43,152 bases of DNA from positions 1 through 43,152 of the forward strand of contig JANXMY010000028.1 of NCBI GenBank assembly GCA_025354405.1, read 5' to 3'. Source of the stretch: Armatimonadota bacterium (GTDB lineage Bacteria; Armatimonadota; Armatimonadia; Armatimonadales; Capsulimonadaceae). Positions 2,009 through 43,152 of this stretch are shown one piece after another. A program made the position numbers and the translations under genes. The notes under the pieces were generated by a model. The model saw only the letters and a program-made list of their open reading frames with translations, was not told where the DNA came from and did no database searches. The stretch's first letter is position 1, and the number at the start of each line of letters is the position of its first letter.

Positions 2009-3135
2009 CCGATCCGCGCCCGAACATCCGCCAGAAACTCCGCCTCATTCTCGATCACCATCTCTACACGCAGGGCGTAAGTCGGCAGACTGTCGGCGTC
2101 AGCAGCCGGCCACTTGACTGCGTCTTTTTCCGTCAGGACAATGGCCGCTGCCCCGGAGAGCAGCGCGGCTTTCTGTACTTCCTGCACCTGGGTCAAATCG
2201 AACGCATGGTGATCGTCCCATGCCTCCTGTCCAGTGATTCGAACCCCAGCATCGTGCATCAGAGAGTGCAGGAACGAAGCCGGCTGCGCGATCGCAGAGA
2301 CGGCATAGATAGGTTCGCCCCTCAGAGCGTCGAGTGGCACTATCGGTGCGGCCAAATCGGACACCGGGACGAAACCAGCAGCCTGATGGTCGGCGAAGTA
2401 CAAACCGGCCGACGGCGCAAGATTCGCGACCCGGGCAGTAAGCGACAGCCGATCCTTTAAGTTCAGTTGACATGCCCGTGTGACCACGACGATCCCCGCA
2501 CGGCTTAGGTGACGCTTTGATTCTCGCAGCAAGCCGCGCGGAAGCGAATAGCCATTGCCGAAAGGGCGGCGGGCGTCCAGCAGTACGATGTCCAAATTCC
2601 GTGCGAGCTGCCAGAACTGGAACCCGTCGTCGAGAACGAGCGCATCCAGGTCGAAGCGCCTGAGAGCCTCATGCCCGGACTGCCGCCGGTCTTTGCCGAC
2701 CAGAACGGGAATACCCGGCAGGGTTCGCGCCAGCAGTACTGGCTCATCCCCCGCTTCCGATGCCGTCAGCAGGCAAGGACTTTCGCGGCCGGAGACAAGC
2801 CGGACGGACTGGCTCTCCCCGCCATGGCCACGGCTTAGCACCGCAAGACGTATCCCCTGGGCCTGGAGGAGGCGGCAGAGCCTCTGGGTCATCGGCGTTT
2901 TCCCCGTGCCCCCCACAGTCAAGTTGCCGATACTGATCACGGGAGCTGGCAGTATTTCCCGCCGCCGCACCCCAAGCTTCTCCGCCGCCAGATAGGCATC
3001 CAGCCCGAAATCATAAAGTGCAGAGAGAGCACTAAGAAGACCACGCACACCTGAGGCCAAAAGGCCGGGCCGAGGCGGCTCACCAATGGTGCTTAACAGA
3101 TAATTTTCTACAGAACCACTCATAGCACATCGCAC
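1996..3135 (-). CDS. lpxK: Tetraacyldisaccharide 4'-kinase
   Basis: LpxK phosphorylates the 4' position of the lipid A disaccharide precursor to give lipid IVA at the cytoplasmic face of the inner membrane. The ATP-binding P-loop is plain: VISIGNLTVGGTGKTP (about residues 67-81), followed by 'LAVLSRGHGGE', 'GDEPVLLAR', 'DALVLDDGFQ' and 'ARNLDIVLLDARRPFGNG', all characteristic of the family. The protein is 379 residues, longer than the roughly 330 of enterobacterial LpxK. An alternative ATG at 3123 (MSGSVENYL) fits the family N-terminus as well; neither start has a strong ribosome site. It lies 33 bases after the DUF374 acyltransferase gene in the same direction and completes the lipid A kinase step of this operon. 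Confidence 0.95.
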   Translation of the reverse strand: MRCAMSGSVENYLLSTIGEPPRPGLLASGVRGLLSALSALYDFGLDAYLAAEKLGVRRREILPAPVISIGNLTVGGTGKTPMTQRLCRLLQAQGIRLAVLSRGHGGESQSVRLVSGRESPCLLTASEAGDEPVLLARTLPGIPVLVGKDRRQSGHEALRRFDLDALVLDDGFQFWQLARNLDIVLLDARRPFGNGYSLPRGLLRESKRHLSRAGIVVVTRACQLNLKDRLSLTARVANLAPSAGLYFADHQAAGFVPVSDLAAPIVPLDALRGEPIYAVSAIAQPASFLHSLMHDAGVRITGQEAWDDHHAFDLTQVQEVQKAALLSGAAAIVLTEKDAVKWPAADADSLPTYALRVEMVIENEAEFLADVRARIGLRD

Positions 3136-3168: not shown

Positions 3169-3861
3169 TCAGGCCCGGCGCCACAGGCTCCACCCCTGCC
3201 GCTTCAGACCGGCCTCGGGCACCCCGGCTTCCCGTTCCGCCTGGGCTTCGACTGCCATAATCTCTGCTCCCACCCGCTCGCACCAGAGCTGCTGTTCTTC
3301 ATGGCTCTTGGCGTCGGAGGGGATATAGATTGGTTCGCCGTAGATCCAGACCGCTCGGGCGAAAGGCATCGGAACCATGTACTGGTCCCATGCCGGCGCC
3401 AGCTTTCTTGGATATGTACTGATGCCAACGGGAATAATCGGGGAACCTGACTTCTGAGCCAGGAAGACCGCACCCGGCTGGACGACATGGATCGGCCCGC
3501 GCGGACCATCCGGCGTATGCGCCAGCGTTGCACCGCGCTTGAGCTGCTTGGTGATGGTCAGCGCGGCCTGTACTGCGCCCCGGGCCGAAGTAGAGCCGCG
3601 CACGGTTTGCCAGCCGAAGCGCTGAAAGATACGGTTCTGATATTCGCCGTCCCGCGAGGTCGAAATCATCGCCCAGTAGCCGCGCTTGCGGAACCGGCAG
3701 ATCGGGATGATCGTCCGCCCGTGCCAGGTGAGCAGTATGACCCCTTTGCCATCTTCCTGTATCTCGCGCACACGCTCCTCACCGACCACCCGGAGCCGCA
3801 GGGTCGGGATGATCAGTCGCAGAAGCCAGTACACCAGAAATGAGACGACACGGTACTTCAT
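3169..3861 (-). CDS. DUF374-type lysophospholipid acyltransferase family protein
   Basis: A 230-residue protein with a hydrophobic N-terminal segment (about residues 5-25) and the DUF374/LPLAT blocks: 'LLTWHGR' in place of the usual HX4D/E box, 'SRDGEYQNRIFQRFGWQTVRG' with the neighbouring Ser/Arg stretch, and 'HTPDGPRGP'. These proteins usually sit beside kdtA, msbA and lpxK and are thought to act on lipid A or Kdo-lipid precursors, though the exact reaction is not settled. Here it lies between msbA and lpxK, which fits that view. The ATG (3859-3861) has no Shine-Dalgarno sequence; a 14-bp tandem duplication fills the short gap before it. Confidence 0.88.
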   Translation of the reverse strand: MKYRVVSFLVYWLLRLIIPTLRLRVVGEERVREIQEDGKGVILLTWHGRTIIPICRFRKRGYWAMISTSRDGEYQNRIFQRFGWQTVRGSTSARGAVQAALTITKQLKRGATLAHTPDGPRGPIHVVQPGAVFLAQKSGSPIIPVGISTYPRKLAPAWDQYMVPMPFARAVWIYGEPIYIPSDAKSHEEQQLWCERVGAEIMAVEAQAEREAGVPEAGLKRQGWSLWRRA

Positions 3862-15839: not shown

Positions 15840-18800
15840 TCAAAACCGGAATACGCCGTCCAGCGAGACAGTGTTATTGCGCTGGTCATCGGTAGAGAGA
15901 CCAATTTGCAGGCGTCGGTTGAGACTATACCCGAGTTTGACCTGGTATTGCGGCGGCTGAACCGTCTGGTCCACCGTGCCCCGTGTCGCGAATGAACGCG
16001 AGAAAGTCACCTCCAGGCGCGGACCAATTTCTTTCACGATCGTCCCACGTGCTCCAAATGAATCGTAATCTACGGACAGGTCCAGCCCGAGTGCCGCTCC
16101 AATTGAATCGGTAATTGGCGAAAGAATGGTCGGAATGACCACCTGGCTGAGCGCGGTCTTGAACTGATTTTCCAGCTGACTTTGACCGCCCGAGCCGCCG
16201 CTTACGATGCCGAGCAATGATCCTGCCGGCACCAGTGCCGCCAGCATCTGAGAGCGCGACAGGTCGCCGGGCCTTGATTCCAGGTCCAGCGCAAGCTTTT
16301 TTGGGTCCGGATCATTCAGCAGGCCATGAATATGGGCGGTAATGATATAGCGCTGAGATTGGTTACCAAACTGACTGCCCGAGAGAGACGATCCACTGGA
16401 CGGCGCGGACTCCCCGATACCGCCCGATGCCACCGACCGATACTGCGAAAGACTATTCGGTGAGACGGATATCGTCGCCTGTGCCGTCAGATCAACATGG
16501 GTTTGCAGGCCTGGCAGACCGTCAACGCCGATAATAGGATAATCCGCCTGCACCGTATTCTCGTCCCCGGTTGCCGGCTTGATGATCTTCAGCAGGGTGG
16601 AAGGCGGCAGGATAAACTGCCCACGCTCCACAGTCAAACCCGCGTGCAGACGTGGTTCGGAAAGCCGCCCCGTGAGCCGCACCTCGCCTAGTGCATCCGC
16701 TTTGAGCAAAGAGCTGCGCACCGAGACAGTTTTGCTGCGGCTTGTTCCAAGCTTTACGGCAACATCGAAACGTGGGTCGAAGCTTGGGGGACCGCCGGAT
16801 GTTGTCGGGGTATTCGACGCCGAAGGCAACGTCGCGACGGCGTCGCTGATCACCAGCGGCGCACCCGCCTGCGTCGCGAGCAGAGGGGTCAGCCACGGAC
16901 CGACCAGCGTCAAAGCCCCATTGATTTTTGCTTTCAGGCTGCTGTTGAACTTCTCATACAGCACGCTTTGTTTGCCGCCTTCGTCGACGGAAAGGTCCTT
17001 TGCCGACAGCTTGACACTCACCTGGCTATCCGAAGAAAGCCCCCCCTGACCCGTGAGCGCAAAGGTCCCCCCCTTGCTGGAGCTGCCACTGAAACTCTGT
17101 ATAACTGCTTTGTTATCTGCAAGAACAACGATCCCATTGATTTTGTTCACCGTGGTCTCGAAATTTGTCAGGCCCAGGGCCGCATCGGTGACCGTGACCA
17201 GCCCGGATAACCCACCCGCACCAAAATTGACACTGGCCGAGATCTGCCCAGCCGTCTTTTTCGCATCCACCAGACCGGGGCTCAGCAGTGCTAGCGCAGA
17301 AAGGTCCTGGACCTTGAGGTCGGCATGCAGGTCCTGATCCGGCAAGACAATTGACGTACGCGCATCCGTGTGCGGTGTCAGAAACCCGGAAGGGTTCGGC
17401 AAGGTTCCGGAGAGCGTGGCCACGAGACGCCCATTCTTGAAGGCCGCTAGATCGTTGACCGTCAAAACTTTGGGAGCACCCGGCGTCTCGGAGATCAGCG
17501 TAATCGCCCCGCTGCGTACTCGGTCCAGCGCAAAGGTCGGTGCCGCGTCCACGGCGGCTTTGGCGTCGGGAACTTCAGGATTCGAGAGGTTAATTGAACT
17601 CAAATAGTTAGGCGACCGGGTCGGTCCAGAGACATTAATGGAAAGAGCACTGATCTCGCGCGGCAAAACGCGAAGGTAGGGAGAGGCCGCCGGGTACACG
17701 GTCTGCAGCAACGCCAGCGGAATATCGGAAGCGTCCAAATTGGCATCAATATTGCCATCGAGGTTCGCCGTACCAGAGGCATTCAGAAAGGCCCGTTCAC
17801 TGGCGGCGTGGATCTGATGCACAGTCACAACATTGTTCTGAAAATCGACATCCGCCGTAGCCGTCCCAATCGGAACCCCTTGGGCTAGGATCTCGTGTGC
17901 CGAGGCGGTGAGATGGCCCGAAGGCTTATTCGCCGCAGTGTAGGCCGCGCTGAGGGAAAGACCCGTCACATGGGTTTCGCCCAGTGTCAGGTTCTCGGCG
18001 CTGAGATCGACCTGTGCAGAGAGTGCATGGAGCGGCCCGGAGAGGGCGATCTTTGGCAGGGCGAACGTCCCGCTGATCGGCTGCGGAAGATCCGCGAGGC
18101 GATGCAGGAAAGACAATCCGGCGGCGCTCTCTCCCCAGTGCGTGGTATGTACCGTCGCGATCAGATGCGAAATGCGCTCCGGGGAGGAGACCGGTATCGC
18201 GGCGAGAAGTGAGAGTGCCGGGATGCGCTTGGAGTGCGTCGGAGTCGGCAAGGTAAGTTTGAGGCTATCGATTCGGTACTCCACATGGCCTGCCGATTCT
18301 GCCGCGTAATCCCGGGGAATGGCGACCACGAACGACCAGGGCGCCCCCGTCTGTGTTACGATACCGTCATCGTAACGCCCGGCCAGGGTCAGCGGCGCGA
18401 AACTTTGCCCATTGACGACCAGGTCGGGGATATTCAGAGCGCGTACAAGCAGATGCGGAGCCTGGGGAGTGCCTTCCAGATGGCCGGTAATGCTCGCCAT
18501 GCCATTTAGCTCGGCATACGGATCGAAGAAGTGGTGCAGACGGTCCAGATTAAGGCCCGTCGCCGTGAAGTCCGCCCGGATCACCCCGGTATCCGTACGC
18601 TGCCCATGCGCCAGGAGCATTGCAGTGCCGGATTTCAGGACAGCATGGTTTACCCGGAGCGCCCCCCCAGAATAGCTGACATCAGCGGAGGCTTCATCCA
18701 GACGATACCCTCCAATGGTCGCATCCATGACCCGCGCATGCCCGGAAGCAGACAATGTATTCAGCCGTCCTGCAATGTGAAAAACACCCTCGGCCGTACC

Positions 18801-35773: not shown

Positions 35774-37405
35774 TTACAAAAGGTTCTCAGGAGTTCCTTC
35801 TGATTTGTCGGCTATAGGCTGGACGCACACTTCCAGGGGCAGGCGGAACGTTTTCTCAAACGCGGTGGCCTGCCCTTCGGCTGCCCAAAGCTCCAGCTGG
35901 GCATCGGCGGTCGCACGCAGGGTCATCCGCACGCGCTCCGGCCGGGAAAGCTTAACGCACTCAATTTCTTTCACCAGCATCAGATGGCTGCGGTCCAGGG
36001 CTTCCGCCAGGCGAAGGGCGCAGGAAAGCACGCGGATCACCCGCTGCGTGCGGGCATCGAGGCGAGCAAATCCAGGGTGTTTGAGCCGGGGTGTCGCTTT
36101 TCGGTGATAGAGGGCCAGGCTGGCGATGATCTCAATCTCCCGGTCATTAAAACCCAGAAGCTCGGAGTGGCGAATTAGGTAGTAAGAATGCTGCTGGTGA
36201 TCGGTGTGCGAGACGAAGAACCCGGCATCGTGCAGCAGGCCCGCATATTCCAGCAGCTCCCGCGCCCGGCCGTAGTCATGCAGACCCAAGCCTTTCCACT
36301 GATCAAACAGCGAGAGAGCCAGAGAGACGATATGCGCCGCGTGGGCTTCATCCACACCGGTCGCCTGCATAAGCTGGCGAATAGAACGCCGCCGCGCCCC
36401 GCTGTCCTCCGGGGAAGTCACTTCGCCGCGCCGCAGCCGGTCGACGATGATCCCTTCGCGCAGGCCCCGGTCGCTAATCTTGATTGTCGCCGCCCCCACC
36501 GTCTCCATAACCGTCTGAAGGATCGCTGAGCCGCCGATGATAATATCCGCCCGTTCGGGGTTGATGCCAGGGACACGCCGCCGCTGCTCCAGAGTCAGAG
36601 CGCAGAGCCGCCGAGTTGCTGCCTGAACATCTGTCAGCGATAATTCGTAATTCCGCAGAGAAGTGGGTGCCGGGGCCGAGGATGCCTGAACGATGATCTC
36701 GGCCAGGTTCTGAGCCGTCCCTGAAGAGCCGTACATGACAGAAAAACCGACCCGGCCGATGGCCCGTGCCGCCGGGGCCAGCAGGGAACGGACATGGCGC
36801 TGGAGACCGGCCCACGCGGCAGGAGAGACCGGCTTGGACGTGTCGACGACGCCTTCGGAAGTCAATCGAATCGCTCCCATTTTCAGGCTGTCTAAGAATG
36901 TGTAGCTGGCCCGGTCACCGACAATCAGCTCCGTCGAGCCGCCGCCGATATCCATAAAGAGGGCACGTTTGCGGGCCGGCAGGTCGATCCCGCTGACGAC
37001 ACCTAAGTAAATCAGGCGCGCCTCTTCCTGACCAGAGATAATCCGCACGTCGAGATCAGCGAGGTCCCGTACGCGCCGGACAAACTCATCGCCGTTATCC
37101 GCTTCTCGAACTGCCGCCGTCGCCAGCGCGACGATCTCCTCCGCGCCGAAGCCTCGCGCCACTTCTGCAAACCGGGCACAGACAAGTGCGCCCCGCGCAA
37201 TTGCCTCTTCGGTCAGGGAGTGCCCACCGCCGTTCTCACCCGAGCGCCCCTTTTTACGGACAGGCGGCTTGTCGAATTCGCCTTCCCCCAGACGTACCAC
37301 CTGCTTCTGGGAAGCAAGTGTGGTCCAGGTGCCGTTTGGCTGGACTTCCACCACGGCGAGGCGAACGGAGTTGGTGCCAATGTCCATGGCGGCAAAGATA
37401 CGCAT
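35774..37405 (-). CDS. Ppx/GppA-family phosphatase (exopolyphosphatase-like)
   Basis: From ATG 37403-37405 the protein has 543 residues. The N-terminal domain has 'FAAMDIGTNSVRLAVVE' (the actin-like phosphate loop) and 'KRALFMDIGGGSTELIVG'. The second half has an HD-like segment 'LLHDAGFFVSHTDHQQHSYYLIRHSELLGF', as in full-length exopolyphosphatases. The family degrades inorganic polyphosphate or pppGpp; length and the HD domain favour Ppx. About 42 bases of extra open frame upstream (to 37447) run into the inverted repeat and are discarded. A TATAAT box 7 bases before the ATG suggests a leaderless message. Confidence 0.9.
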   Translation of the reverse strand: MRIFAAMDIGTNSVRLAVVEVQPNGTWTTLASQKQVVRLGEGEFDKPPVRKKGRSGENGGGHSLTEEAIARGALVCARFAEVARGFGAEEIVALATAAVREADNGDEFVRRVRDLADLDVRIISGQEEARLIYLGVVSGIDLPARKRALFMDIGGGSTELIVGDRASYTFLDSLKMGAIRLTSEGVVDTSKPVSPAAWAGLQRHVRSLLAPAARAIGRVGFSVMYGSSGTAQNLAEIIVQASSAPAPTSLRNYELSLTDVQAATRRLCALTLEQRRRVPGINPERADIIIGGSAILQTVMETVGAATIKISDRGLREGIIVDRLRRGEVTSPEDSGARRRSIRQLMQATGVDEAHAAHIVSLALSLFDQWKGLGLHDYGRARELLEYAGLLHDAGFFVSHTDHQQHSYYLIRHSELLGFNDREIEIIASLALYHRKATPRLKHPGFARLDARTQRVIRVLSCALRLAEALDRSHLMLVKEIECVKLSRPERVRMTLRATADAQLELWAAEGQATAFEKTFRLPLEVCVQPIADKSEGTPENLL

Positions 37406-37412
37406 ATCAGAG

Positions 37413-37418
37413 ATTATA
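37413..37418 (-). promoter_or_regulatory. -10 box for a likely leaderless ppx-type transcript
   Basis: TATAAT (consensus) on the minus strand, 7 bases before the ATG at 37405. Transcription would begin at or next to the A of the start codon, and no ribosome site exists in between. No -35 hexamer stands out in the C/G-rich upstream sequence, which is the edge of the inverted repeat. Confidence 0.5.
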
Positions 37419-37438: not shown

Positions 37439-37626
37439 GGAACCCACCCCGACACTCCGTGTCGACCCTCCCGAAACGGGAGGGTGGACGGGTGGTAGAC
37501 ACTGGGTTCCGCTAAAATAATTTGGTCATCCTAAAAACCAATCTTTAGAAGACTATACTTAACAAATCTCTTCCCGCTCACCCTCCCGTTTCGGGAGGGT
37601 CGACACGGAGTGTCGGGGTGGGTTCC
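37439..37626. repeat. Perfect 47-bp inverted repeat with nested palindromes
   Basis: Arms at 37439-37485 and 37580-37626 are exact reverse complements, 94 bases apart. Each arm contains two smaller palindromes: GACAC-TCC-GTGTC and a 9-bp stem ACCCTCCCG-AAA-CGGGAGGGT. The right arm's last base is the last base of the giant gene's stop codon (TAG, 37626-37628); the left arm ends 33 bases from the ppx ATG. The pair could form a large cruciform or act as a terminator after the giant gene. The arms look like two copies of one interspersed palindromic repeat facing each other. The 94-base centre holds no gene. Confidence 0.85.
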
Positions 37627-40600
37627 TATGGCCCCGTCGCTGTGAAGCGAGGATTGAGGGTCTGATAGTAGAGATCGGCCGTCCCGTTGCGGGTGCTGTT
37701 CCAGAACAGCCAGATCTTGTGCGGGTAGTCCGGCCTGGCTTGCGTCGGCACGGCCAGCAGATCGTTGTAAGCATTCGTGTCTAGGAATGCCGCAGGGTTG
37801 TTTTCGTTGATCGGCTTGCTGATCGGCACTGCCGTATCCTTTACCATAGACAGGCCGGAGATCATATCGGTCGGCGGCGTTCCATCCGTGTTGCTGACGA
37901 CCTCGTCCTGCCACTGAATTGTCCCATTGACAGTCGTAGGTGTACCATTCGGCTGACCGGTGGTGACGGAACTTGCCGGCGTGAAGGTAATCGTTGCTAG
38001 CTGCCCTTCTGTGATCGTCCCAGACGCGTTGACCGGGAAGTAGAAACGTCCCAGGGTGGCATCAACATCCACAGAGCTGGTGATATCCGCACCACCAACC
38101 GTTACCTTCACTTGTGTGAGGCCACCGATCACGGCAATCGGTCCATCCGGCTGAAAGACCGTCAGCCGCTGCGCTTTCTGGTAAAGCGTCGCGGAGGCAA
38201 CCGTCCCACTGACACCCGATTTGCGCCAGAAATACCAGCGTCGATCGGTCTGAACGCGTCCCAGACCAGGGCCTTCGTTGGGTTTGAACGTTGGATCGAG
38301 GAATGTCACCACGCCGGTATCCGCCCGGCTGTCCTCGGTGATCCGCCGCGCCTGCGGCGTAAAGGTCGCTGTGACCACAACCGTGGGGGCAGTCACGAAC
38401 CGAACCCGGCCCGTGCTGACATCCACATAGAGCGTATTCGTAAACGTATTCGGCGTTCCCGGTGTCAGGCTGACCCCGGTGTAAACCAGCAGGCCGCTGG
38501 CCCGGTCAAACGTCACGTTCTTGAATTGAGGCTTTCCTGTCGTGTCATAAAGCATCCCTACCCCGCCGACAAGTATATTTACCCCCGCGGCACGTGACCA
38601 CGCCACATCCCGGGCCTGCAGCCAGCCCCCTATCGGCTTCAGCTGCTCCGTGACCTGTGAGAACGACTGCAGCACCAGCTCGGGTACATTTGACCCGTTT
38701 AACAGGACCGGCAAGTATCGGCAGGCGTACAGGTCGGAATTACCGTCGGCCGCCGTGCCGGAGAACGTGACTTCGATCATCTTGTACTGCGTCACGGTGC
38801 CATTTGCAGCGGTGATCGGAGCCGAGAGGAGTATCGGCGCGGCGTCGGACACGGCGGTCAGCCCGGCAGGAATCGGGAGCAGTGCCGTGTTATTCGGCCA
38901 GTTCCCCGTTCCCGGTTCACGCGAGTTATAGTAGATCGCCGTTCGCCCTCGAGTCGAGCCGGTCCAGAAGGCCCAGAGATTGCGATTGGCCGGGAATCCT
39001 GCGCCGAGGACATACAGACCCCGCACTCCGTACTTCACCTGCGCCGGATCGCTCGTCACTAATTGCGCTGGGCCTAAGACGCCGGAGTTAGGTGTCACCG
39101 GGTAGCAATAAAGCGCATTCTGGTACGGTGCTGTGTTGGCATTGACCGCAAATGCGAAGACACTCTGCGCATCACTCGCAAATGCCGCCCCAGAGAGATA
39201 CGGAGCTTCCTGCGCGATGCTCAGGCCGCTGTTGGTTCCTGCCACAAGCGTCGTCGGATTGTTCGGAGCAAACCAGCTCGGGTTGCCTATTGCAGGGTAG
39301 TACGGCAGGTACGCCGGAGCCGAGTACGTAGCGAGTGCGCCGTAGATACCGTAGTTGTTAAGCCCGGCACGGCCAGAGGTCCAGAAGAGCGACAGGTTGC
39401 CACCGACGGCCTGGAACGCCGCCGGTGCAAAGTCCGGGGTGCTGATCAATCCACTGGCACTCGTTCCAGCCTGTCCGCCATCAATCTGCGGCAGACCACC
39501 ATACGTCAGGCCGTCGGTCATCCGGTCTTCCAGCACAGAGGTCCGTACGGTGACGCCGGGATCACTCAATGGCTGCTGACCGACTTGGTACACGTCATTA
39601 GGCGTTCCCCCAGGCACTCCTAGGCCACCAATCGCCCCACCATACTGCGGCGGATAAAGTGGATTGTAGCTTGCACCGTTATAAGTCGTGTAGCCACCGG
39701 TATCAATCCCTTCGAACAGGCGCAAGGTCTGCGAGTAAGCCCCAATTGGAGTTCCGAATGGAACTGCGACACTGACATAAGGAAGGGCCGTACTTCCAAC
39801 CACAGGCAAACCGTTCGCCGAGGGCGGCACGTAATACTGCGAGTTCGCTTCAGGCGAATCCGGTACGGTCAGCGTTGTCGCGGTGGCTTCCGGGCGCGGC
39901 TTATGGAACGTGTAACCGGGGAACTGACTCGAAACCGAATTACTTGTCACTGGATCGGTCACCCCGCCCGCAACAACAGGATTACGCCCAAGTCCCAGCA
40001 GGTCCGTATCTAGGGAAGAGCGCAGCAGGTATGGCTGGGCTGGGGCGGTGCGTGGCCCAGAAATACCGAGGAAGTCGAACGCCGGGATGTAGGAAGACGG
40101 GTCCAGCGTATCAGAATTCAGCAGTAAGGTCTGTGGAAAAGAACTGATCTTCTGGTCGAAATGCACATTGAGCAAATTGACGTTGCCGTCGTTGTGCGCC
40201 GTCACCGAAAGATACTTATTCTGGTACGCCGGGGTGTACGGGCTAAACGCGCCCAACTGCGGCGTGTACAGATCGGTCAGGATACCGAAGGAACTCGGCA
40301 CCGGGCCGACATCCACCGTCGAGCCATCCAGGCTCGATTGCATATTGACGGCCACGCCGGAAAACACCTGAACATCGCGGTACGGCTCGTTGTTGTCACA
40401 GATGCCATTGTGGTTGAGGTCAATAAAGACTCGCTGGGCACCCCCCGCCCCTTCGACATAGCCTTCCGGGAAGGTCACATGCGAGGCATTGATTCCGCTC
40501 GGCGGAATGGCGGCCTGGGTGTAGGTCGTATTCGTCACACCGGTACTAATTTGGTACTGATTGACATCCCAAACTTGCAGATTGGCCGGCTGATGACGTG

Positions 40601-43152
40601 GCACAACCATCGCGATTTTGATCGCGTCGAGGATAATGGTACGCGCCTGTGGAGCAGTAGCAACTCCGGTGGCAGGATCCGGGATTAGCTCCGAGAGGGA
40701 CTCACTTCGGCGTCCGGTGATTTCCTGCGTCGTGCCTGCATTTGTGACGAGCGTGTGTGTGATCGTATTCGCGGAGATATCCGGGTAATCCCGGCTCGTG
40801 TTGCTGCCGACTGCGCTGGGCAGCTCCTCCCAAGGCAGACGGTTGACACACGCGCCCGGTCCATTCAGTCCGGTGTTGTCGTTCCAATGCGCCCCCGCCC
40901 GCTGCATGCTGAGCGGATAAGGCGGGAAAAGCCTTTGCGAAGCGTTCGTTGGGTCAAGATCGTTCTGGTGCAGTCCAAGGAGGCTACGGTCGGCGACATT
41001 CAGCATGCCGCTTCCATAACCGTAGATGGGCAGGGTGCTGAGGCCGTTATTCCCCGACGCATAAGTTCCAGGCGGCGTCGGAAGATTTCTCGAATCGTTG
41101 TTGTCTCCGATGCTGCCATCACGGATCTGTCCGAGGGAAGTCCCGACGAACTTGTACGCCTTCGGGTAGTTTAACGCGTCCGCCGTCCGGTTGGCCGAAG
41201 CCTGCGTCGGATCGATGCCATTGGCGTCATAGCCGCTGGTCGGTGCGTTTTTAGTGTAGACCGAGTTGCCGTTGGTCAATGCCTCCAGGTCGCGTGTACT
41301 GGCTAGGAGTGCCGGGTTGATTGGCCGGAACGGACCGACTCCGCCTGCGTCCCCTAGTTCCGTAGCCGATGGGGAACCGCCGGTCAGGGCATAGGGAATA
41401 CCGGCCCCGCGCAGAGCCAGTGGGTTCAGAATGCCGAAGGTCGGCTGGATTGTTGGCAGAGACTGCCCGATTAGAGGGGTCGGCCCCGTGCGGTCGACGC
41501 TCTGGCTGCCCTGAAGCGTCTGCGCCTCCAGGGTGACGGTTCCGGGAATGGCGGTATAAGTCGGCGGCGTGGCCGTACTGTCATATCTGTAAGCAGTCGC
41601 TGTCTGATGCGCCTCCGTCACATGGCGGCGGGCACCGGGTGTATCGCCGCTTCGGGTACGGTAGCTGCCGATCGGGTAGCTGTAGGCGGCGATCCAGCCA
41701 TGACCTGCGGTCGTCGCCGCGTCTTTCAGTGAACTCGTGAGAGGCTCATCCGGACGCCCAGTGTCCGTGCGCTGAATAAAGCCGTTATCGGTCGCCGCAC
41801 CGGTGAGGGAAGGCAGTACTACTCCGGGAACGGTGGTCGTCGGGGCGTAAGCATTGGCATCGCTGACGTCGCCGATCTTGAAGGTCACTGCACTGCCATT
41901 GCCATAAAAGAGTGTCGGGTCGACCGGGTCTTGTACGAGCTTAGTCGGATCTGGCGCTGTCAAGACGAATGGGCCGGGAGGGACGACATTGGCGATACGG
42001 ATATAAGCGTACTGACCCCATTCGAACACCGCGATGGTGCCGCCAGGTGGGTTCGCGTTGTTCATGTCCGTGCTGCTGCCTGGATGTGCAGTCGTGCCAT
42101 CGAACAGGAACGTCCGCAGCGGGTAACGGGCATCGATGGAGTCGGGAGGAATGGAATCTATCACGCCGCCATAGTTCGCAGGCGGCACGATTCCGCCGTA
42201 ATTCGGGTCAATCGGGGTGATGCCTCGGCAAAAGCCGGTTGTGCCGTCGCCGACATAGATCCAATCGGTCGTATTCTTCCCGGCGTAGGCAGAAGGCAGA
42301 AGACCCGAAGTCGTCAAGTCGCTGACATCGGCGGCAGCGGGGGTCGGTGAAGAGACCGGGCCGAAGCCGGTGAATGTCTTGTCCACGCTGATGAAAGGGA
42401 ACGCCTGGCCCGTATTCAGATTCGAAATCGGTGTCGCGCCAAGCTGGAAGAGGGAGTTCCCCGCCGTCGCATACACTGCGCCGCCGTTGCCACCGCTCAC
42501 GGACGAGTTGGTGACCAGTGCCGGGGACGATGCAAATCCGGCCCCCGTGGGCGACTCGATCCGGTAAATATCGCGGGTTTTGTCATCGAAGCCGTTGACG
42601 TCCAGAGCATAAAAGCCGCTGTCGGCAACGCCCTGCGTGCCGATGTAGAGCATGGGCACGAATTTGCCCTTGACATCGGTGTTGACCGAGTCGGCGTGAG
42701 TATAGGGTGTTGTCGCTCCCAATCCATAGAAAATATTAGTCGGGAACTGCACGAAGCCCATCGCCGGGGTCGCGTGCAGGAAAGAGCCGATCGGGGGAGA
42801 CGGCTCGGGCGTCCGATCTTTGGCCTTGTCATTCGGATCCTGCGCCAGCGGATAAGCCCAGATATTCGTGGTGCCGCCGACCGTTGTTGCTGTCGTGCCG
42901 TCCGTATTCACTGCCCAGATGCGGCCTGTTGTACCCGCCGCCGCGCGAGCGTCAGGGTCGCGGGGGATATTGGCCCCCGTGGGATCAAACGGCACTTCGA
43001 CACCGGAGTTGGCGGCGAAGTAGATACGGGTGCGTGGGGCACCGCCGACGAGATCATCTTTATTGCTGAAGATGACCGGCGAGCCGCTGAGGTTGCCGAG
43101 AGCCGGACGAATACCGAGGCCGCCGACGTTGCCGACGCCAACATATGCATTC
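37626..43152 (-). CDS. Giant beta-propeller-type, probably exported, protein; 5' end outside window
   Basis: The reading frame is open from the right edge to TAG at 37626-37628: 1,841 residues here, with the N-terminus missing. An internal GTG at 42993-42995 is not a convincing start because the frame continues with protein-like sequence ('IYFAANSGVE') to 43152. The first part looks like PQQ/quinoprotein-type propeller blades ('RIWAVNTDGTT', 'MLYIGTQGVADSGFYALDVNG', 'DWIYVGDGTTGF'). The middle has 'VFIDLNHNGICDNNE', a calcium-binding-like Asp/Asn loop, in Ig-like surroundings. The last third repeats a TolB/BNR-like motif, 'FWTSGRAGLNNYGIYG', 'FWTGSTRGRTAIYYN' and 'LFWNSTRNGTADLYYQ'. It is Pro/Thr/Asn/Gly-rich and low in Lys and Cys, fitting a surface or secreted protein. 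Function unknown. Confidence 0.8.
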   Translation of the reverse strand, partial: NAYVGVGNVGGLGIRPALGNLSGSPVIFSNKDDLVGGAPRTRIYFAANSGVEVPFDPTGANIPRDPDARAAAGTTGRIWAVNTDGTTATTVGGTTNIWAYPLAQDPNDKAKDRTPEPSPPIGSFLHATPAMGFVQFPTNIFYGLGATTPYTHADSVNTDVKGKFVPMLYIGTQGVADSGFYALDVNGFDDKTRDIYRIESPTGAGFASSPALVTNSSVSGGNGGAVYATAGNSLFQLGATPISNLNTGQAFPFISVDKTFTGFGPVSSPTPAAADVSDLTTSGLLPSAYAGKNTTDWIYVGDGTTGFCRGITPIDPNYGGIVPPANYGGVIDSIPPDSIDARYPLRTFLFDGTTAHPGSSTDMNNANPPGGTIAVFEWGQYAYIRIANVVPPGPFVLTAPDPTKLVQDPVDPTLFYGNGSAVTFKIGDVSDANAYAPTTTVPGVVLPSLTGAATDNGFIQRTDTGRPDEPLTSSLKDAATTAGHGWIAAYSYPIGSYRTRSGDTPGARRHVTEAHQTATAYRYDSTATPPTYTAIPGTVTLEAQTLQGSQSVDRTGPTPLIGQSLPTIQPTFGILNPLALRGAGIPYALTGGSPSATELGDAGGVGPFRPINPALLASTRDLEALTNGNSVYTKNAPTSGYDANGIDPTQASANRTADALNYPKAYKFVGTSLGQIRDGSIGDNNDSRNLPTPPGTYASGNNGLSTLPIYGYGSGMLNVADRSLLGLHQNDLDPTNASQRLFPPYPLSMQRAGAHWNDNTGLNGPGACVNRLPWEELPSAVGSNTSRDYPDISANTITHTLVTNAGTTQEITGRRSESLSELIPDPATGVATAPQARTIILDAIKIAMVVPRHQPANLQVWDVNQYQISTGVTNTTYTQAAIPPSGINASHVTFPEGYVEGAGGAQRVFIDLNHNGICDNNEPYRDVQVFSGVAVNMQSSLDGSTVDVGPVPSSFGILTDLYTPQLGAFSPYTPAYQNKYLSVTAHNDGNVNLLNVHFDQKISSFPQTLLLNSDTLDPSSYIPAFDFLGISGPRTAPAQPYLLRSSLDTDLLGLGRNPVVAGGVTDPVTSNSVSSQFPGYTFHKPRPEATATTLTVPDSPEANSQYYVPPSANGLPVVGSTALPYVSVAVPFGTPIGAYSQTLRLFEGIDTGGYTTYNGASYNPLYPPQYGGAIGGLGVPGGTPNDVYQVGQQPLSDPGVTVRTSVLEDRMTDGLTYGGLPQIDGGQAGTSASGLISTPDFAPAAFQAVGGNLSLFWTSGRAGLNNYGIYGALATYSAPAYLPYYPAIGNPSWFAPNNPTTLVAGTNSGLSIAQEAPYLSGAAFASDAQSVFAFAVNANTAPYQNALYCYPVTPNSGVLGPAQLVTSDPAQVKYGVRGLYVLGAGFPANRNLWAFWTGSTRGRTAIYYNSREPGTGNWPNNTALLPIPAGLTAVSDAAPILLSAPITAANGTVTQYKMIEVTFSGTAADGNSDLYACRYLPVLLNGSNVPELVLQSFSQVTEQLKPIGGWLQARDVAWSRAAGVNILVGGVGMLYDTTGKPQFKNVTFDRASGLLVYTGVSLTPGTPNTFTNTLYVDVSTGRVRFVTAPTVVVTATFTPQARRITEDSRADTGVVTFLDPTFKPNEGPGLGRVQTDRRWYFWRKSGVSGTVASATLYQKAQRLTVFQPDGPIAVIGGLTQVKVTVGGADITSSVDVDATLGRFYFPVNASGTITEGQLATITFTPASSVTTGQPNGTPTTVNGTIQWQDEVVSNTDGTPPTDMISGLSMVKDTAVPISKPINENNPAAFLDTNAYNDLLAVPTQARPDYPHKIWLFWNSTRNGTADLYYQTLNPRFTATGP

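Follow-up and report, generated by a model that had tools for sequence, protein, structure and literature searches.

A 188-bp unit in the window, the 43,152-nucleotide stretch of the genome of an uncultured Armatimonadota bacterium analysed here, is on balance probably one copy of a genus-specific, gene-free, REPIN-like family of dispersed repeats, putatively moved in trans by a Y1 transposase. The family is present in many intergenic copies with compensated hairpins, lacks target duplication and differs in presence and absence between sister species. The best reading is of a REPIN-like non-autonomous family that is new in sequence and in host, a MITE derived from a DDE transposon and a bidirectional terminator being less likely.

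The 188-bp unit and its family

The unit consists of two inverted copies that match at 47 of 47 bp and flank a 94-bp core, in which no gene was called from codon usage. With looser matching the inverted arm reaches 63 nt at 90% identity, and the left and right ends match at 96% over the first 54 bp. Perfect 47-bp arms with two internal palindromes each had been described in the first-pass annotation, and both are found exactly as described; the fold of the 188-nt DNA strand lies far beyond that of shuffled sequences (−75.1 kcal/mol versus −27.2 ± 3.4; z = −14.2). The features of the unit and its borders are as follows.

37439–37485, plus strand: left arm of the perfect 47-bp inverted repeat, comprising terminal GGAACCCACCCC, hairpin 1 and hairpin 2
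37451–37463, plus strand: left-arm hairpin 1, GACAC-TCC-GTGTC, the stem of which varies with compensation across the family
37465–37485, plus strand: left-arm hairpin 2, ACCCTCCCG-AAA-CGGGAGGGT, the most conserved part
37486–37579, no strand assigned: 94-bp core (spacer), the consensus orientation of which reads on the minus strand
37580–37626, minus strand: right arm, exact reverse complement of the left arm
37580–37600, minus strand: right-arm hairpin 2
37602–37614, minus strand: right-arm hairpin 1
37626–37628, minus strand: TAG stop codon of the giant gene, the G of which is the first base of the repeat
37413–37418, minus strand: TATAAT-like −10 box of ppx, 20 bp from the repeat end, read from the sequence

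Copies of the ~188-bp unit occupy at least 60 distinct intergenic places in its own genome (G000; 3.6 Mb in 233 contigs), where blastn returned 111 matching pieces, the exact hairpin-2 palindrome occurs 70 times and a consensus-like query recovered additional copies. All 59 scored copies are intergenic, within stretches that are ~77–85% coding according to gene calls from a simple codon-usage script rather than a standard gene finder. The first-pass annotation had made its reading depend on whether the arm recurs in the genome, which these counts answer, and its suggestion of a transposition footprint stands if taken to mean a dispersed mobile repeat. A congener, G001 (= G002), carries the family in fewer copies, together with a sub-family whose ends are GGAACCTAACCCC and whose hairpins are ACCCTTCCCT/AGGGAAGGG. 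The repeat is absent from 17 other genomes of the order by exact pattern search and from five other genomes of the family by blastn, and it has no match on phages, plasmids or viral contigs. A search of the papers available found no prior description of a dispersed palindromic repeat family in Armatimonadota. The copy on contig C122 is adjoined by another repeat family, of which the congener has some 35 copies or more (L085 ~2835–3030, G000:C122).

Across 128 arms the order is terminal block GAACCCACCCC (exact in 110), hairpin 1, CGA and hairpin 2; the end GGAACCCACCCCG, common to the arms, pairs only with the far arm. Hairpin-1 stems are GCAGC/GCTGC (83 arms), GCAAC/GTTGC, GACAC/GTGTC, GGTAC/GTACC, GACGC/GCGTC, GGCGC/GCGCC and GCCGC/GCGGC. 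Watson–Crick pairing in this hairpin amounts to 87% over 21 distinct stems, counted as stems and not as independent events, versus 49 ± 5% when partners are shuffled; compensation thus affects both sides of the hairpin next to the end, as in REPINs. Where the two arms of an element carry unlike hairpins, each arm is still locally paired (C102, C175:59877, C227:2375), so pairing operates within each single arm and also across the whole element. Within an element the arms are 94% identical, versus 87.7 ± 0.9% between elements in permutations, and in 13 of 51 elements the two arms are identical throughout, which makes the perfect arms of the window copy unremarkable. Cores are diverse, with a median nearest-neighbour identity of 76% (71% for the window core), and their comparison gives no sign of a recent burst. 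Five copies in G000 bear a ~32-bp hairpin, GTACCCGCTGCCGAGGCCC..GAGCAGGGG, in the loop of hairpin 2 (C4 ~2846–2880; C58 ~92159–92195; C59 after 8330; C204 ~3732–3765; C92 ~17345–17380).

Insertion sites, nesting and the sister species

Long terminal inverted repeats, intergenic placement, high copy number and the lack of coding content would also suit an ordinary MITE, that is, an internal-deletion remnant of a DDE insertion sequence, moved in trans, with the arms as its terminal inverted repeats. Some copies are flanked by TA on both sides, and 2-bp direct matches occur at 8 of 42 copies versus 4.9 ± 1.5 under random pairing, only slightly above chance. However, none of the 42 copies shows a target duplication of at least 4 bp, no arms more than ~342 bp apart enclose an ORF in its own genome (as assembled, gaps included), and no recurrent gene that might be a hidden mobiliser was found beside copies. 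The outer ends are ragged and carry GGAACCCACCCCG units in tandem, and plain terminal inverted repeats are not expected to have compensated local hairpins. A MITE of this kind is therefore possible, though unlikely. Correia elements and other bacterial MITEs are likewise small, gene-free and intergenic with terminal inverted repeats; the present family differs from them in its compensated hairpins within each arm, its ragged nested ends and the absence of visible target duplication.

Across the 42 copies, flanks are mirrored to an extent well beyond that given by random pairing. Inverted flanks agreeing at 14 or more of 20 positions occur at 12 of 36 contig-internal copies, versus 1.6 expected and a maximum of 6 in 2,000 shuffles; a third of contig-internal copies are thus placed inside larger palindromes. 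Some mirrored flanks belong to an outer palindrome seen repeatedly, GATGTTACGCAAGGCTTTC/GAAAGCCTTGCGTAACATC, inside which unrelated sequences occur too; others are terminal-block repeats or are private to one site (C122, C229, C203). REP dimers inserted within palindromes have been recorded in other bacteria (PMC3733652), so this nesting habit is not new. A recurrent outer palindrome, ACTGATGTTACGCAAGG...CCTTGCGTAACATCAGT, encloses various inner repeats (L069:3081–3266; L089:1892–2065; L148:3930–4178; flanks of the copies on C35, C54:10404, C1:8523 and C199), in the manner of a carrier element or a preferred target. A further family of palindromes, bounded by GGCTTTGTTGCATAAAT...ATTTATGCAACAAAGCC (G000 C1:260–450; L125:250–351), is nested once in the centre of the window repeat family.

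Comparison with the congener dates the occupation of the window site. There G001 has TAGGAACCCACCCGGCAgcgaaaTGCCGGGTGGGTTCCCCCGCC, a 36-bp hairpin (L106, 1155–1190), with the same junctions on both sides and flanks ~80–84% identical to those of the window, which places the occupation of this site before the split of the two species. Such ancestral occupation argues against the recent gain proposed earlier on the strength of the perfect arms, as does the window core, the nearest relative of which in the genome is only 71% alike. Other sites are shared or differ: the repeat is present in both species at C20/C291 and C13/C210, is missing from G001 at C54:6699, C175:59877, C204:5137 and both C229 copies, and at the C113 site G001 holds a different dimer with two-hairpin arms.

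These patterns bear on a rather unlikely alternative, in which template switching at hairpins during replication, together with recombination between copies, lengthens and shortens palindromes without a transposase. It would account for the nested, locus-specific mirrored flanks, the greater likeness of arms within an element, arm-specific oddities common to both arms (C203, C54:6698, C165), the hairpin inserts in the hairpin-2 loop, the 36-bp hairpin at the window site of the sister species and the single-hairpin forms in that genome. Alone, however, template switching leaves the dispersal to at least 60 unrelated intergenic sites unexplained, some of which are bare in the sister species. On the preferred reading of a REPIN-like family, an older, shorter hairpin or element at the window site would predate the species split; the long form may then have entered the loop of that hairpin in the window lineage, or the sister may have lost the middle.

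Known systems and candidate mobilising enzymes

REPINs are inverted REP doublets moved by RAYT/TnpA-REP and show compensatory changes (PLoS Genet 2011, PMC3116915). The present family shares with them two inverted, hairpin-bearing ends around a spacer that fold as one long hairpin, many extragenic copies in a single genome, compensatory changes, and singlets as likely remnants. Plan and behaviour give good support to the view that it works like a REPIN. It differs from textbook REPINs in its length of ~188 bp and in its longer arms of ~54 bp, which have two hairpins and a shared terminal block, with GGAACCCACCCCG as a third conserved block; no RAYT gene was found with the window repeat, and a GTAG-type tag is lacking.

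The family also resembles the GTAG- and CGTC-tagged REP dimers of a published survey (PMC3733652), in which dimers have structured spacers, some families lie inside longer palindromes and, as here, CGTC families lack an associated transposase gene. Unlike those dimers, its arms carry GTAG in 0 of 128 cases and CGTC in only a minority of 20 of 128, so that no tag is conserved, and stem and loop composition differ. A word search of the text of that survey found no mention of Armatimonadota.

Y1 transposases are represented by four proteins in G000 and eight matches in G001. Four tested proteins scored with the IS200 model and, at values under its cut-off, with the REP-associated model, and a fifth is a plain IS200 protein. 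The examined RAYT-like Y1 genes adjoin inverted dimers with arms of 49–61 nt and two hairpins per arm, of unrelated sequences (L128:1248–1383, G000:C51; L231:2334–2471, G001:C279; L125:898–1029, G000:C208). Several unrelated REP families, each beside its own RAYT-like gene, therefore occur in one genus. These dimers are like the window family in their inverted arms, paired hairpins and spacer; they differ in sequence, in adjoining a Y1 gene and in having a spacer of 16–38 nt versus the 94-bp core. A partner of the TnpA-REP type, suggested in the first-pass annotation, was borne out in part: such genes are present, but each one examined carries other repeats. None of the Y1/RAYT genes examined in the two assemblies, which are ~94–96% complete, is flanked by the window repeat, their flanks holding other repeats or none of this kind; because both assemblies are fragmentary and often break off within a copy, they could lack a partner gene. 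As far as these assemblies allow, the family thus falls outside the REP–RAYT system in both partner and tag.

An IS200-like element with near-identical ends lies in different places in the two species (L122:1420–2000; L120:1400–1990) and has apparently been mobile recently. At their right end these copies have a CGCAGCTTGCTGCG hairpin, which was considered as a counterpart of hairpin 1 and rejected, the resemblance being limited to a short, simple palindrome.

In the mechanism that we favour, the repeat would spread as a folded single strand, and a Y1 (HUH) transposase of the IS200/TnpA-REP kind would move it in trans, reading the local hairpins and joining the ends without target duplication, perhaps with a preference for hairpin tips. 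A more speculative variant, to which we give a low probability, is that the family, having no transposase of its own, multiplies with Y1 enzymes borrowed from unrelated REP families in the same cell and inserts at the tips of hairpins already in place, with the result that palindromes of different families nest and go on growing.

The window site between the giant ORF and ppx

The unit lies between a giant ORF (37626–42995, minus strand, 1,789 aa), which has no Pfam match and is kept in the sister species with ~80% nucleotide identity at its 3′ end, and ppx (PF02541, E = 5.7e-62), which starts at 37405, 33 bp from the repeat end. Relatives of ppx include Armatimonadota MAGs, the nearest, at 94% protein identity, being in the congener MAG G001. 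A consensus scan found no match to a −35 element of ppx. The earlier statement that the repeat adjoins the end of the giant gene and the ppx promoter is correct: the G of the TAG codon is shared, and the −10 box lies at 20 bp; contact with a stop codon is seen at 2 of ~43 full copies, hence it is no rule of the family. Boxes of the −10 type, GGGTATAMT, occur ~8–10 bp before start codons (window 37413–37418; G000 C175 ~60055; L106 ~1209), and this short spacing suggests leaderless transcripts.

A functional RNA or DNA structure, acting as a bidirectional terminator, a transcript-end stabiliser or an insulator between the giant gene and ppx, is improbable. The position between stop codon and promoter and the very stable fold (−136 kcal/mol for RNA of the minus strand; z = −16) would favour such a role, and the compensated stems could reflect selection on RNA. 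Against it, gene-pair classes are the same as for all intergenic gaps, core orientation is random with respect to transcription (14 along, 13 against) and several orthologous sites lack the repeat. The bidirectional terminator put forward in the first-pass annotation was rejected on T-runs, gene-pair class and a consensus scan: no T-run lies beyond the window stem, only 2 of 86 outer ends across all copies have one, and convergent gaps hold 2 of 35 classifiable copies versus 15 of 148 gaps overall. No Rfam model scored above its gathering threshold for the window unit, and two sub-threshold eukaryotic matches were set aside as chance for a long hairpin. The repeat is probably without a job for either ppx or the giant gene.

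An assembly artefact, a doubt raised in the first-pass annotation, is highly improbable, because the mirrored flanks that resemble de Bruijn graph artefacts, and were discounted as such, belong to contigs that begin inside a copy (G000 C130; G001 C37), whereas the window copy is contig-internal with two unlike flanks, and at this site the sister species shows both junctions and an unchanged order of the two genes.

The odd inverted repeat of the window is thus explained as a dispersed, probably selfish repeat rather than a device for the control of ppx, and the phylum Armatimonadota gains a dispersed palindromic repeat family. With several TnpA-REP-like genes, each accompanied by a repeat of its own, and one repeat without an evident partner, the genus is well suited to the question of cross-mobilisation, and to asking why some repeats sit at the centres of hairpins.
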